A DNA stretch of 64,000 nt, taken from a virus. The notes beneath the pieces are model-generated. The model saw nothing but the letters and a program-made list of their open reading frames with translations, did not search any database and was not told where the DNA came from. A program made the translations under genes and the position numbers. Position 1 is the stretch's first letter; each line of letters opens with the position of its first letter. Where the stretch lies: positions 23,425-87,424 of IMG/VR virus record IMGVR_UViG_3300031972_001405; one strand, given 5' to 3'. Shown here piece by piece: positions 10,669 through 61,339 of this stretch.

Positions 10669-12078
10669 TCACATCAAGTTCGTGACCTTGACGCGACGAT
10701 AGTAACGGTTTGCGTTTACACGCAGTCTGCCAAGACCCTGGGTGGTGCCTTCTGCGAATGGGTTAGCGACCAGACCATAACGGGTCTTGAAGCCAATCTT
10801 CGGCTGGAAGGAGTTCTCACCAACTGCACGAACCATCTGAAGAGGAACGTAAGGGCAGTAGAAGATGCCAGCATCATAAGGGGAAGTACCCTTATAACCA
10901 ACAACATAGTACTGGTTAGCACTATTGTTAGCAGCGTAAGGATCGATGTATACGCGATACTTACCATTAATAGTACCAGCAAATGTGTTGCCAGTGTCAT
11001 CAACGCTCAGGTTAGCGTTAAGAGCAGGGGTGTAATCCAGGATGCCTGCCATCGTGAGTGCGGAAGCAACGTCTGCAGAACACAGAACAATGTTGCCTTT
11101 GCCTCTACGAGTTCTTTGTGCAATCTGGTTCGCATCTCTTTCGATTTGGAACAGAAGACCCTTGAACTTCTCAACAGACCAGCGACCATTGGAGTCAACG
11201 TCCAGGTTGAACTCACCAGCAGTTGCAGTGTTGAGGGTAGCGCCTTGCTCGGCAACCTTGTAGATGGTTCTGATCACTTCTCTGTTGATTTCCGCAAGGA
11301 TTTCAGTAGAGAGGATGTTAGCAAGTTCTGCTTCAGCGTTAAGACCGTGAATTGCCTTAAGGTCTTGTGCCAGTTCCAGAGAGTACTCTGCTTTCAGCGC
11401 ACGAGACTTAGCAGTAACGGTGACTTTCTCGATCGAGAATGCCATCTCGTTGAAGGCATCCGAACCAGTGCCGTCCAGAGCTTCAGCATCGCCAGTTGCC
11501 ATGCCCTGACCCACGGTATAACCGAGGGAAGATGCAGAACCAACAGGGTTGAGTGCAGATGGGTTGCTACCAGTCTGTGAGGTAGTACCCAAACCAGCAA
11601 CGTTATCGCTACCAGTAAGATCGAAACCATGATCCTGACCAGAGAAGGCAGTATCTGCTTCGTCGAAGAATGCTTCAGTACCGCCTTGACCTGGGGTGCC
11701 AGGACCAGCATAACGTGAACGCATTGCGAAGATCAGTCCAGTAGGACCGCTCATCGGTTGAACGCCTGCAAGGTCATATGCGACCAAGTTAGGCATAGAG
11801 CGTCTGATCAAGGAGATCAGAACGGGGTCGAAACCAGCAGTAGGACCAGCAGCGGCAGAACTGCCACTGAAAGCACCAGACCCACCAGCGGCATTACCAG
11901 CGTTGGTAGGCGTTTCCATCAGGTTGAAACCTGACTGGAAAGACTGCTCTTCTTGTAAAAACTTTTCTTGATTTTCTAGCAGAACAGCGGTAACTGCTCT
12001 ACGGTGTGAGTCGGAGATTCCTCCGTCGTGGTCGAGAAGTGGCTTCCACTTTTCAACCAGATGCTCTGATTGGAACAT
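10669..12078 (-). CDS. gp23: gp23 major capsid protein
   Basis: 469 aa (T4 521). The N-terminal delta region ends around FNLME (near residue 54), a plausible cleavage site for the gp21 protease, which cuts after x-x-E. The body contains DPVLISLIRRSMPNLVAYDLAGVQPM and GLIFAMRSRY, the diagnostic gp23 core, and it ends in NANRYYRRVKVTNLM. It builds the hexameric lattice of the head. It lies directly after gp22 and is followed by a strong terminator. No late box or clear Shine-Dalgarno was found before its ATG, so the main signal may be the one before gp22 or one I cannot recognise. Confidence 0.97.
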   Translation of the reverse strand: MFQSEHLVEKWKPLLDHDGGISDSHRRAVTAVLLENQEKFLQEEQSFQSGFNLMETPTNAGNAAGGSGAFSGSSAAAGPTAGFDPVLISLIRRSMPNLVAYDLAGVQPMSGPTGLIFAMRSRYAGPGTPGQGGTEAFFDEADTAFSGQDHGFDLTGSDNVAGLGTTSQTGSNPSALNPVGSASSLGYTVGQGMATGDAEALDGTGSDAFNEMAFSIEKVTVTAKSRALKAEYSLELAQDLKAIHGLNAEAELANILSTEILAEINREVIRTIYKVAEQGATLNTATAGEFNLDVDSNGRWSVEKFKGLLFQIERDANQIAQRTRRGKGNIVLCSADVASALTMAGILDYTPALNANLSVDDTGNTFAGTINGKYRVYIDPYAANNSANQYYVVGYKGTSPYDAGIFYCPYVPLQMVRAVGENSFQPKIGFKTRYGLVANPFAEGTTQGLGRLRVNANRYYRRVKVTNLM

Positions 12079-19178: not shown

Positions 19179-19409
19179 CTACCAATCAGGATATAGTTCT
19201 CCTTCTAATCTCTTCGTCTTTTCTCTTCTAGATCTAGATATCCTTTTCTTGGAACAGTCCTTACATTCATATGAATATGATGATGGTTGATACTTATTCT
19301 TTCGAGTTCTGTAGAAACCATCAATAAGATTTTTTGTTTTACCACACACCCTACACTTTCTATCGGTAAGATAGAGATGTTCTATCTGAAATTGTTCTTC
19401 AACATTCAT
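19179..19409 (-). CDS. Small zinc-ribbon-like protein between terminase and sheath
   Basis: 76 aa from the ATG at 19409, which overlaps the gp17 stop (TAATG); an in-frame start at 19424 is less likely. Two pairs of cysteines, CRVCG and CKDC, about 29 residues apart, suggest one zinc site; a basic stretch KKRISRSRREKTKR follows. A nucleic-acid-binding role is a reasonable guess; HNH catalytic residues are not seen. Confidence 0.7.
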   Translation of the reverse strand: MNVEEQFQIEHLYLTDRKCRVCGKTKNLIDGFYRTRKNKYQPSSYSYECKDCSKKRISRSRREKTKRLEGELYPDW

Positions 19410-50200: not shown

Positions 50201-53200
50201 TCTCCGACAATTACAGGTCGTAGTTGAGCTCTGCTTCCAACATCTAAGGTAATTAACGGTTGCTTCTCGTAATTGGAAATATCAGAGTTTCCGTAACCAG
50301 TTCCGCCAGAGATAATATTTACTTTCTCAATAGAACCAATAACAATTGGTTGAATAATTGCTGGGAACAATGACTCAGCATTAGTTGTTCCAATTCCAAT
50401 GTTTTGTTGATCTGTGAGAAGAAGTTTTGAAGTATCAATTCCAACATCACCATCAATCTCAACTTTAATATCAGGATACTTAAAGATATGAGTTCCTAAA
50501 CCAACACTCTTAATATCTGCATAATCTCTATTGAGGTAATTTGCATTTGTGGTAGTTGTTCCAATTCCAGCAGCTGCTAGTCTAAAACTATTTTCATCAA
50601 GTTTTAAAACGTAATACTGTTGAGTTGTTGAAGTATCCAGTCCAGAGATAGGAGTATCGAGATACTTATACTCAATTATCTCTCCATCCTCAAATCCATG
50701 ATCAATGTAACTAACAATGTCTGCAGATGTATTGATACCTGACGGCTGAACATGAATATCATTAGTTGCATATCCTTCACCTGGATCAACAATATCAATT
50801 CTAGCAATTACACTTCTAGGAAGATCTGCTCTGAAAGTTTGTCTACCCTGACCAAAATCAGTGATGTTTACCGTGTTAACACCAGAAATAGCATCGTCAC
50901 TATTGTTGTGAAACTTGATAGTGTATAAATCTGGAGTGCTGACAAAGAATCCACTATTTTCGTCAATATCGTAAATTCTAATTACATCACCTTCAGTAGA
51001 ACCAATACCAATAGCAGTTTGATCATTGTTATCAACAAAGACTAGTTCTCCATTAATAAATCCATGATATGTTGAGAAAGCAACAGTATTTGACGTTGTG
51101 CTGATTGTTCCAGCACCTTTATTGACAATAATCGTTCTCTCATGAATTTTTTCTTTGAGCAGGGTCTCTGCTCTTGCGCCTTCTCCGTTACCACCAGAAA
51201 TAGTCACCGTTGGTGGATTGATGTAACTAAAACCACCATCTACGACTTGAATTTGTGAGAAAGAACCTCTAACAGTTAAGGTAGCAGTTGCTCCAGTTCC
51301 AACGCTATCGTTAATTACGAATACTGGAGGATTTACAACATCATATCCTCTTCCACCACTAATTACATCAACAGTTTCAACTTCTCCATAATAGATAAAA
51401 TTCTCGGACTTATAGTTCAGAACTTCAACACCATTTACCAAAATACCAGTTCTTGTATCAGGATTAGTAGTAAATTCTAATGCCTCATTATCAGTGGCAG
51501 GTGGAATTGCTCTAATGATCTTTTGAGCATCTAAAGGTTTAAGATAATGTCTGGATGGATGTAAATATTGACTTGTAGCAATTCCACTGACATCTTGGAA
51601 GACACCAGCAGCAATATCAGCCCTACTATTTGCAAGTTTTATATTATCAACATCAATCACATGAACATAGTATTCTCTCTCATTCAAATCTCCAAGATTG
51701 TTAATTATAACGTCTTCAATAGATTCATTAAATTCTTCAATGATATTATCATCATCTACTTCACTAGAATCGATGACTTCTTTATCTGGAACGTAGTTTA
51801 CTGATTCCCCACTGATGAATCCATGATTGGGAATTGTTATAACATCGCCAACGTAAATTTTTGGTGGAATTTGTACAGATCTATCAGAAAGCTCTAGTTT
51901 TGTTCTATAACTCGGAATACTATTAGAAACAATATAGACATTGTTATCAGAATCTTTGTATGAATTAATAACATCCGTGTAAAACTTGTTTGCTACAGGG
52001 AAGTTTACAGAATCAGCAGTTTTTGGTTTTCTACGAGCTTCAAACGTATAATTTAAACCACGAGTATTCTGTAAAGATGTTAAATCGTTGAGTTCATCTA
52101 CGACAAAGTTAAATCTACTAGAAAGATCTACAACTCTACCAGAAGATACTTGACCAAGTTCAATATTGATTATTTCAACTCTATCATCAAGATCGAGTGC
52201 ATGTTCCTCAAAACTAACAAATTCAAATTTGCCAATATCTAAATTATTAGAACTTTTTATTTTAAATCTGTTGTGAGTATTGTAAATTAGTGATTCACTT
52301 ACACTATCACTAAAATCTTCGCCCAGAGAACTTACATAGACTCTATCATCCTCCTCATAATTTGAAACTTCACTTTCATTAAAGGATAACTCATTGAGGA
52401 CACCAGTAATGCCAAATGTAATAATTTCATTATTAGGAGTTATGGAATAGATATTGGTATTCTCAATAATTGTCTCGCCAATAGAAATTTCGTCAAGAAC
52501 TCCGTTACAATTTAAAAATTGATTGACTGTAGTATTTGTATAAGTTACAACTCCACTTGTTCCATTGTTGAAAGGAACAAATATCTCTCCTGCAGTAGAA
52601 AAACCAACAGTAGAGTCAACGTTAACAAATGTACCACCTGCAGCAACATTATCAATTGCTTTTGACTTTCCTGTAACTTTAAACTCACCAAAAAGCGTTC
52701 CAAAAATTTCAGTATCTCTGCTGAAATCATAATCAATACCAACCTTTACATAATCTACTCCTTCTCTTCTAAGTTTCTCAATTTTTGTAATAGAACCGTA
52801 AGCCTTATTAACATTTGTATTAAAAGTGCTTGTATCTTGATATAATGTTTGTCCAATAAGATCTTCTACGTCACCTTCAGATTCAATGACCTCCAAGACC
52901 ATTTCAAGTTGTCTTCTGTAAGTTGCATCAGACAGTTTGAAGACATTATCTTGTGGTTTTTTAATTTCTACGTCAACACCAAACAAAGCACGAAAGAGAA
53001 TTTCAAAAGAACGATCAGTTCCTTTTGAGGTATAAAAATCTTTTGCTTGTTTGATGAAAACTTCTTGATTCAGTCCATCTGCAAGATCTCTTCCTTCAAA
53101 ACCAGGAGAGAATTGTGATTTTAATTTTTCAAGAAATATTTTTTTATACTCTGATGTTAAATTGAATACAACAGTTCTATTAATGTGCTCATCTTCTTCA

Positions 53201-59247: not shown

Positions 59248-59276
59248 ACTATAACAAACCTCCGAGGGATTGTCAA
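59248..59276 (-). promoter_or_regulatory. Sigma-70-type promoter in the 59.2 kb gap
   Basis: On the minus strand TTGACA (59276-59271), 17-nt spacer, TATAGT (59253-59248), near consensus. The same TTGACA/TATAGT pair and spacing as the gp55 promoter at 6851-6879. No gene lies between it and the terminator. Confidence 0.72.
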
Positions 59277-59304: not shown

Positions 59305-59502
59305 CTATCTGATAGCCTCATGATATGATTGCCAGTCCTGATCAACACGTTCTGTGTGGTCCTTGATTGATACTGTCACTGTCTCATTTGATTGAATACT
59401 AAAAATATCCTCCCAGTCAATTTGATAGGGGTCGAAGTCATCATGAACCTCGAAATCTAAAGTCACACTGAAGCGTTGCAATTGTCCTGGCAGGGTGTTC
59501 AT
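59305..59502 (-). CDS. 65-aa acidic hypothetical protein
   Basis: LQRFSVTLDFEVHDDFDPYQIDWED and ETVTVSIKDHTERVDQDWQS: strands with alternating hydrophobics and many Asp/Glu. An early-type promoter lies 32 nt upstream of the ATG. Unknown function. Confidence 0.7.
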   Translation of the reverse strand: MNTLPGQLQRFSVTLDFEVHDDFDPYQIDWEDIFSIQSNETVTVSIKDHTERVDQDWQSYHEAIR

Positions 59503-59533
59503 AACTGTCAGTGCTCCTGTGTGTTACTCTCTA

Positions 59534-59563
59534 ATTATACTCTGAGATTGGCAGAATTGTCAA
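59534..59563 (-). promoter_or_regulatory. Sigma-70-type promoter before the 65-aa gene
   Basis: On the minus strand TTGACA (59563-59558), 18-nt spacer, TATAAT (59539-59534), both boxes perfect. Start expected near 59527, giving a 25-nt leader. Confidence 0.75.
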
Positions 59564-59688
59564 CCCCTTATAAGTCTGTGAGGATTTATGAACTTTCTGC
59601 GGGGGTGTTGTTGACAAACTCGGCGTCTTATGATACGCTCGCTAAGATCACTAAACCTCAGCACCTTTCAAAGAACAATAACACTTAG

Positions 59689-59762
59689 TTTTCCACAATA
59701 ACAGTGCTTATATGAGTCTTTTCCCACATAATAACCAAGGTTTTCAACAGGGTTGTGGAAAA
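59689..59762. other. Cluster of DnaA-box-like sequences; candidate origin or control region
   Basis: The 300-bp gap 59503-59808 holds no leftward gene. It contains TTTTCCACA at 59689-59697 and its reverse complement TGTGGAAAA at 59754-59762, with near matches TTTTCCCACA (59719-59728) and TTTTCAACA (59741-59749). TTTTCCACA is the DnaA-box form I recall for cyanobacteria. The surrounding DNA is AT-rich toward 59820. Function unproven. Confidence 0.35.
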
Positions 59763-59808
59763 CATTTACATCACCCATATACATTTAATAACACATTAAT
59801 AAACGTTT

Positions 59809-59970
59809 TTAACCACCAAATACAGGAATTACGTCTATTTTAGGCGAATCTTTGGCAAGTGTGTGCATAACATACTCTGCCGCATCTTCACCGAATACAA
59901 CAACACTTTGATTCTTATAAAACCCGTTAACTTGTTGCTTACCCTGCCAGATCACGCGATACTTATTCAT
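59809..59970 (-). CDS. 53-aa hypothetical protein
   Basis: Start at ATG 59970 (MNKYRVIWQGKQQVNGFYKN), overlapping the previous stop by 8 nt; an alternative ATG is at 59994. VVVFGEDAAEYVMHTLAK suggests a strand-helix unit. Unknown function. Confidence 0.6.
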   Translation of the reverse strand: MNKYRVIWQGKQQVNGFYKNQSVVVFGEDAAEYVMHTLAKDSPKIDVIPVFGG

Positions 59971-60217
59971 GGACAGATTGCCTGGATTTGACATAAGTGA
60001 GTTCACAGAATTGATGAGGAAAGCATAGAATACAAACACGATTATTCTTATGTAAGTGACAATCTTTCAGACTTTGTTGAGACTTAGGAATTGTTCTGAT
60101 TTCGATTGTTACATACAGGTCATCTACAAAGTACACCCAACCTTCTAAGTTTCGATCTTTCCATAACACATAATCGTTTAATTTCGGGCGGTAACACTCG
60201 GAATGGGTATCAGACAT
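59963..60217 (-). CDS. 84-aa hypothetical protein
   Basis: Start at ATG 60217, six bases past the previous stop; a GTG at 60226 is possible. RPKLNDYVLWKDRNLEGWVYFVDDLYVTIEI looks like an SH3-like small barrel. C-terminal Cys-rich part CILCFPHQFC. Unknown function. Confidence 0.6.
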   Translation of the reverse strand: MSDTHSECYRPKLNDYVLWKDRNLEGWVYFVDDLYVTIEIRTIPKSQQSLKDCHLHKNNRVCILCFPHQFCELTYVKSRQSVHE

Positions 60218-60997: not shown

Positions 60998-61339
60998 TCA
61001 CGAAAAGACGAAACCATTGGTGAATTCAAAAGTGTTGAAGACTTTACTTTGTCCCGCCATTCCGACGAGTTTGTCAACATACCACTGAAAGTTTTTCTGA
61101 TAAACACGCTCACCAGCAACACAGAAATAATCACATAGTGCGTTCAATCGTGATTTGGTTGTATTAGACTGCCAACCGCCATCATAGATTGTCATGCTAT
61201 CTTCGTCGATAGTTGCAATTTGATTGCCGTGGAGATAGACAAAACTAACGCCCTCAATCGTGATCACTTGAGTGTTACCAGATTTCCAATCTTTGTTGGA
61301 TTGGATTGCCTGACACATTTGGGTTTCGATTTTACGCAT
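60998..61339 (-). CDS. Conserved cyanophage hypothetical protein (113 aa)
   Basis: MRKIETQMCQAI at the start, VSFVYLHGNQIA, DGGWQSNTTKSRLNALCDYF and YQKNFQWYV. Proteins with this DGGW-x-T-x-x-TKSRLNA pattern occur in cyanophages of more than one tail type. Function unknown; probably an early protein. Confidence 0.8.
   Translation of the reverse strand: MRKIETQMCQAIQSNKDWKSGNTQVITIEGVSFVYLHGNQIATIDEDSMTIYDGGWQSNTTKSRLNALCDYFCVAGERVYQKNFQWYVDKLVGMAGQSKVFNTFEFTNGFVFS

Follow-up and report, generated by a model that had tools for sequence, protein, structure and literature searches.

A candidate replication origin with host-type DnaA boxes in the T4-like cyanophages

Analysis of an intergenic region in a 64-kb stretch of viral DNA (the window) suggested, with a probability of about 0.6, that T4-like cyanophages (Kyanoviridae) start replicating their DNA there, at an origin that by analogy follows a T4-style plan and incorporates a module for the host initiator DnaA. 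The relatives of the source contig were T4-like cyanophages of this family. An earlier note on the same DNA had drawn attention to a cluster of DnaA boxes and had missed the promoter, the AT-rich block, the conserved neighbourhood and the other repeats that occupy the same slot in relatives. As judged from their sequence context, the boxes are part of a larger conserved element that comprises a predicted promoter, an initiator-site module and an AT-rich block. The parts of this element, their order, their conservation and their non-randomness were directly evident in the genomes compared.

The element lies in a gap of 306 bp (59503-59808), in agreement with the earlier estimate of about 300 bp, and the gap is flanked by leftward ORFs at 59305-59502 (phrog_12516) and 59809-60039 (phrog_1078). 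The two exact, opposite-strand copies of TTTTCCACA and the two near matches that had been claimed within 75 bp were all confirmed. Box 1 (TTTTCCACA, 59689-59697, + strand) matched the cyanobacterial consensus exactly (PMC4674748); it was followed by two DnaA-like boxes with one mismatch each, box 2 (TTTCCCACA, 59720-59728, +) 31 bp past box 1 and box 3 (TTTTCAACA, 59741-59749, +) 21 bp past box 2, and then by box 4 (TTTTCCACA, 59754-59762, -), which was exact, inverted and 13 bp from box 3. By these matches, the four boxes on both strands make up the putative initiator-site module (59689-59762). The two exact copies, 65 bp apart with the one-mismatch boxes between them, were the only ones in the window, and the 9-mer was not found at equal density elsewhere; the whole 87-kb contig contained one more, at contig position 12028. 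The number of exact copies in the window was ordinary (2 found versus 1.3 expected), and the unusual feature was their clustering. Four exact or one-mismatch boxes within 75 bp were found in none of 600 simulated windows (first-order Markov, 64 kb each), in which the maximum was three boxes, reached in six.

Clusters, defined as at least two exact TTTTCCACA copies within 100 bp, were then scored in 12 records, namely the window's own contig and 11 complete genomes of T4-like cyanophages. They were present in 7 of the 12 (S-SM2, Syn9, S-PM2, S-RIM32, P-TIM68, S-CAM8 and the window's contig). Most of the genomes compared had entered the sample through similarity to the region, with a possible bias toward clusters; among the five genomes chosen by name (Syn9, S-PM2, P-SSM2, P-SSM4 and P-HM2), two had a cluster. 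The cluster comprised three boxes in S-PM2 and three plus a second pair in S-RIM32, and in Syn9 it was located at 52565-52597. For 1,260 permutations of the TTTTCCACA letters, the mean was 0.10 records with a cluster and the next best word reached four; when all 9-mers were compared, the seven-record level was matched only by simple codon-type repeats. No exact-box cluster was found in this 12-record test in P-SSM2, P-SSM4, P-HM2, S-BM3 or SynMITS9220M01; S-BM3 had a single exact box next to TTATCCACA and two TTTTCAACA sites.

To avoid circularity, elements were also sampled independently of the boxes, by a scan whose pattern comprised only the promoter and the start site and had been taken from boxed elements. 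Among the matches listed, an exact TTTTCCACA lay within 230 bp downstream in 62% of the 89 elements that had a -35 and in the upstream flank in 4.5% of the same 89. When near-duplicates were removed, the matches listed comprised 79 promoter-defined elements; an exact box was present in 48 of these, and 30 (about 38%) had no box even with one mismatch. Successive boxes in the promoter-defined elements listed were most often 21 bp apart on the same strand (15 cases) or 13 bp apart and inverted (15), followed by 12 bp (9) and 42 bp (7). The spacings in the window were 31, 21 and 13 bp, and the 13-bp inverted pair was thus one of the two commonest arrangements among the relatives listed. One lineage (L032, L054 and L077) carried about six exact boxes over 300 bp and, beyond the first, a second inverted pair, TTTTCCACA and TGTGGAAAA, 34 bp apart.

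Upstream of the boxes, a sigma70-like extended -10 promoter was predicted from the sequence at 59611-59639 (+), consisting of TTGACA (59611-59616), a 17-bp spacer and TGA-TACGCT (-10 at 59634-59639). It scored highest of all promoter-motif matches in the contig (39.5 versus 20.6 for the runner-up); it was not among the matches of a stricter consensus promoter scan. Most relatives had the same promoter, in the same polarity, ahead of the element. Variant promoters were seen in Syn9, S-PM2, S-RIM32 and S-CAM8, and by reading took the form TTGACA-17-TAAGNN in S-PM2 and S-CAM8. The promoter is followed directly by the block CGCTAAGATCAC (59640-59651, +), which was conserved nearly letter for letter in phages of many genera and is likely to be the start of the predicted rightward transcript. 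On the opposite strand, a leftward promoter with 12 of 12 consensus matches (TTGACA-18-TATAAT, 59534-59563, -) probably serves the genes to the left of the gap. Since this promoter (59563-59534) points away from the rightward promoter of the element, the gap is divergent. A second strong leftward promoter-like site, with 11 of 12 consensus matches, was located at 59248-59276 (-) of the window.

Downstream of the boxes lies an AT-rich block, CACCCATATACATTTAATAACACATTAATAAACG (59772-59805, +), which its conserved motif and low stability mark as a candidate DNA unwinding element. The motif, with the consensus AACTCATATATATTTATTAAAACATTTATAAT across elements, passed the threshold in 130 of the 135 non-redundant elements but in 0 of 135 shuffled ones, and the least stable 40-bp stretch at the block fell within the lowest 0.85% of window stability. 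When viral contigs were scanned with the inner inverted box pair and isolate genomes were read, one order recurred: in the orientation of the window, a rightward promoter ending in CGCTAAGATCAC, boxes about 50-115 bp further on, and then the AT-rich block. The geometry was loose, since the boxes lay beyond the AT-rich block in 12 of 92 boxed elements and upstream of the promoter in P-TIM68. In some relatives (L029, L095 and L099), the AT-rich block was seen by eye to contain TATAAATA, a T4-type late promoter directed back over the boxes, which might switch the element off late.

The gene for Kyano_Gp96 (PF23790, phrog_554), identified by family match at 60998-61339 (-), was a conserved neighbour of the element in different genera, and the two were separated by 0.1-2.3 kb in nine isolate genomes. 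Among the matches listed, the gene was present on the fetched stretch in 48 of the 79 promoter-defined elements, and in each of these 48 it ran counter to the promoter of the element. P-SSM2, P-SSM4 and P-HM2 had neither a Kyano_Gp96 gene, as determined by tblastn, nor a box cluster. Kyano_Gp96 is a possible partner in initiation.

The word TTTTCCACA is the published DnaA box of Synechococcus elongatus, Anabaena and Cyanothece (PMC4674748). In 112 of 146 cyanobacterial genomes it occurred as close pairs on one strand, and the reversed control word gave almost none. In small cyanobacterial genomes, which were placed by inference in the size class of Prochlorococcus and marine Synechococcus, the region upstream of dnaN contained TTTTCCACA, TTTTCAACA and ATTTCCACA boxes and CTACTACTA trios; the TTTTCAACA variant, which is the sequence of box 3, was present there in four of the five such genomes examined. 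Cyanobacterial TTTTCCACA arrays were dominated by distances of 21/22 and 11/12 bp between boxes on the same strand; other bacteria had these distances too, and the phage spacings (21, 12 and 42 bp) matched them in part. The 21-bp spacing was also found in TTTTCCACA arrays of other bacteria and therefore speaks for DnaA generally and not for cyanobacteria. DnaA domain IV was encoded in all 21 cyanobacterial genomes tested. There was no match to PF08299 (DnaA) in any of the 12 phage records, of which the window's own contig is partial, and a phage-encoded DnaA was rejected on these grounds. Since the boxes match the host box, the hosts encode DnaA and the tested phage records do not, it is likely, more so than the origin reading itself, that host DnaA binds the phage boxes, a prediction that is well supported by the sequence, spacing and recurrence of the boxes.

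T4 is thought to initiate replication from transcripts without host DnaA, and the earlier note had regarded a DnaA-dependent start as a departure from this. The contrast proved to be less sharp than claimed, as the layout resembles that of the T4 origins, with a promoter and an AT-rich unwinding element. In T4 oriF and oriG, a middle promoter reads into an AT-rich unwinding element and an R-loop transcript primes the leading strand, and oriE combines an early promoter with 12-nt iterons of unknown role (PMC3016281). As in oriF/ori(uvsY), oriG/ori(34) and oriE, the predicted cyanophage promoter reads into an AT-rich block. The middle promoters of oriF and oriG depend on MotA, whereas the sigma70-like TTGACA -35 of the cyanophage promoter suits an early promoter of the oriE type; oriE likewise has a repeat cluster, with iterons where the cyanophage has DnaA boxes. 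The cyanophage differs from the T4 origins in that its repeats are mostly host DnaA boxes and in that one conserved element was found per genome; only scattered E. coli-type DnaA boxes were found in the T4 genome.

The element also resembles the cyanobacterial oriC beside dnaN, which has a cluster of TTTTCCACA and variant boxes, spacings of 21/22 and 11/12 bp and adjoining AT-rich DNA (PMC4674748). It differs in having no dnaN and an upstream promoter that reads in, in its 13-bp inverted box pair, which is rare in the hosts, and in the DnaA-trio CTACTACTA, which was found upstream of dnaN in most hosts examined and was absent, by reading, from 59680-59830. For Syn9, which also has a box cluster, a review reports a single predicted theta origin and gives no location (PMC2984593); a single origin predicted in this T4-like cyanophage would agree with the present reading.

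By analogy with the T4 origins and bacterial oriC, we infer origin activity and the loading of a primosome or formation of an R-loop as follows. Host RNA polymerase would start early in infection at the promoter (59611-59639) and read through the boxes into the AT-rich block. Host DnaA, occupying the two strong and the two weaker boxes, would help to open this block or would keep it open. The transcript would then anneal as an R-loop and become the leading-strand primer; alternatively, the phage helicase-primase (homologues of T4 gp41/gp59/gp61) would gain entry. GC skew gave this reading no support. Neither raw nor third-codon-position skew switched at the element, a comparison confounded by the one-sided gene strand and by gene class, and the maximum of the raw detrended skew lay about 8-10 kb from the element in S-SM2, Syn9 and S-CAM8, with a sign opposite to the bacterial rule.

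The boxless elements retained the promoter and the AT-rich block, and many held other repeats between them. Among the matches listed, TTGAGAAT/ATTCTCAA repeats were found in 10 of 30 boxless and 0 of 49 boxed promoter-defined elements, GATACGAAT/TTATCATTATC repeats in three boxless elements, and arrays of TGTGTTACA, ATGTGCCCCACAT and GATCTAGAACAGG in one boxless element each; 11 boxless elements listed fitted none of these patterns. Examples of the TGTGTTACA, ATGTGCCCCACAT, GATCTAGAACAGG, TTGAGAAT and GATACGAAT sets are L442, L470, L533, L510, L515, L536 and L519, and the phages with other repeats include Bellamy and SynMITS9220M01. Among the elements listed, these sets never co-occurred with DnaA boxes. 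Such mutual exclusion would be expected if binding sites were exchanged within an otherwise fixed machine, and nothing argues more strongly that the slot is occupied by sites for an initiator or a regulator. A tentative extension, to which we give rather less than even odds, is that the origin is modular: the early promoter and the unwinding block would be fixed, and the initiator-binding cassette that they enclose would be exchangeable. About 60% of these phages would recruit host DnaA, the others would use unrelated repeats for other initiators, and specificity would have been swapped within the family. Since relatives hold other repeats in the same slot, DnaA is not a universal requirement; it would be optional, given that 30 of the 79 listed elements were boxless and that P-SSM2, P-SSM4 and P-HM2 had no cluster. 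The DnaA-dependent start suggested in the earlier note was supported in part, and a DnaA-linked start of replication accounts best for the anatomy seen in the genomes compared.

Loci of the datA type carry DnaA boxes outside the chromosomal origin, with an accessory site (IHF in E. coli) and a large DnaA load. The phage boxes likewise lie away from the chromosomal origin, and they might bind host DnaA for titration, which would halt host replication, or for modulation of the rightward early promoter. Such a role, which we consider unlikely, would suit the presence of boxes in phages that have no DnaA gene, their position just downstream of a promoter and the multiplication of the sites as phage genomes replicate. 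However, unlike datA-like loci the boxes are few (2-6) and lie in a single place, next to a promoter and a conserved block of AT-rich DNA, and neither that block, nor the order of promoter, boxes and AT-rich DNA, nor the unrelated repeats in the same slot of other phages would be explained.

Somewhat less likely again, the element might act as a strong early promoter that drives a non-coding or antisense RNA, with the boxes and repeats serving as operators for other phage or host DNA-binding proteins and no involvement of DnaA. No part of the element is shared more widely than the promoter, its transcript would be antisense to the leftward genes, and other repeat families occupy the same slot, all of which would fit. 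Against this, the putative transcript was unstructured (z 0.13), the repeats lie about 50-115 bp beyond the start site, an unusual position for operators, and the word is the exact cyanobacterial DnaA box with the 21-bp and 12-bp spacings common to host arrays. A structured RNA was rejected, as Rfam gave no match in the window and the transcript folded no better than shuffles. A DNA or RNA hairpin formed by the inverted pair (59741-59762) was also rejected, since its arms, TTTTCAACA and TGTGGAAAA, are mismatched; among the promoter-defined relatives listed, the arms were mismatched in six of eight such pairs as well, and arm pairing is therefore not the conserved feature. That an AT-rich word merely happened to cluster in a gap that is itself AT-rich, with which the exact-word number on its own would agree, has a negligible probability and is already refuted by the comparative data, given the 0 of 600 simulated windows, the clusters in 7 of 12 records where 0.10 would be expected and the layout repeated across genera.

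Among the viruses that infect marine Synechococcus and Prochlorococcus, the T4-like cyanophages rank with the most abundant, and we found no experimentally mapped origin for them in the accessible literature. The element provides a precise, testable site in the cultured phages Syn9, S-PM2, S-SM2 and S-CAM8. If the origin reading is true, recruitment of the host initiator would tie phage replication to host replication control, a link of interest in cells where the growth of both host and phage follows light, and an origin in which one repeat set replaces another within a single slot would be modular in a new way.

Annotated genes overlapped the element in two isolates. In S-SM2 (GU071095.1, 57997-58101; L086), the annotated SSM2_086, which is probably not a real gene, overlaps the boxes and the AT-rich block. 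In S-PM2 (AJ630128.1, 19177-19333; L580), two annotated tRNA genes (Asn and Leu) span the box cluster at 19231-19264. Other viral contigs (L006, L012, L022 and L049) contained dense intergenic clusters of TTCCACA / GTGTGGAAA repeats that were unlike the cyanophage element, and these contigs possibly represent another phage group with DnaA-like sites.
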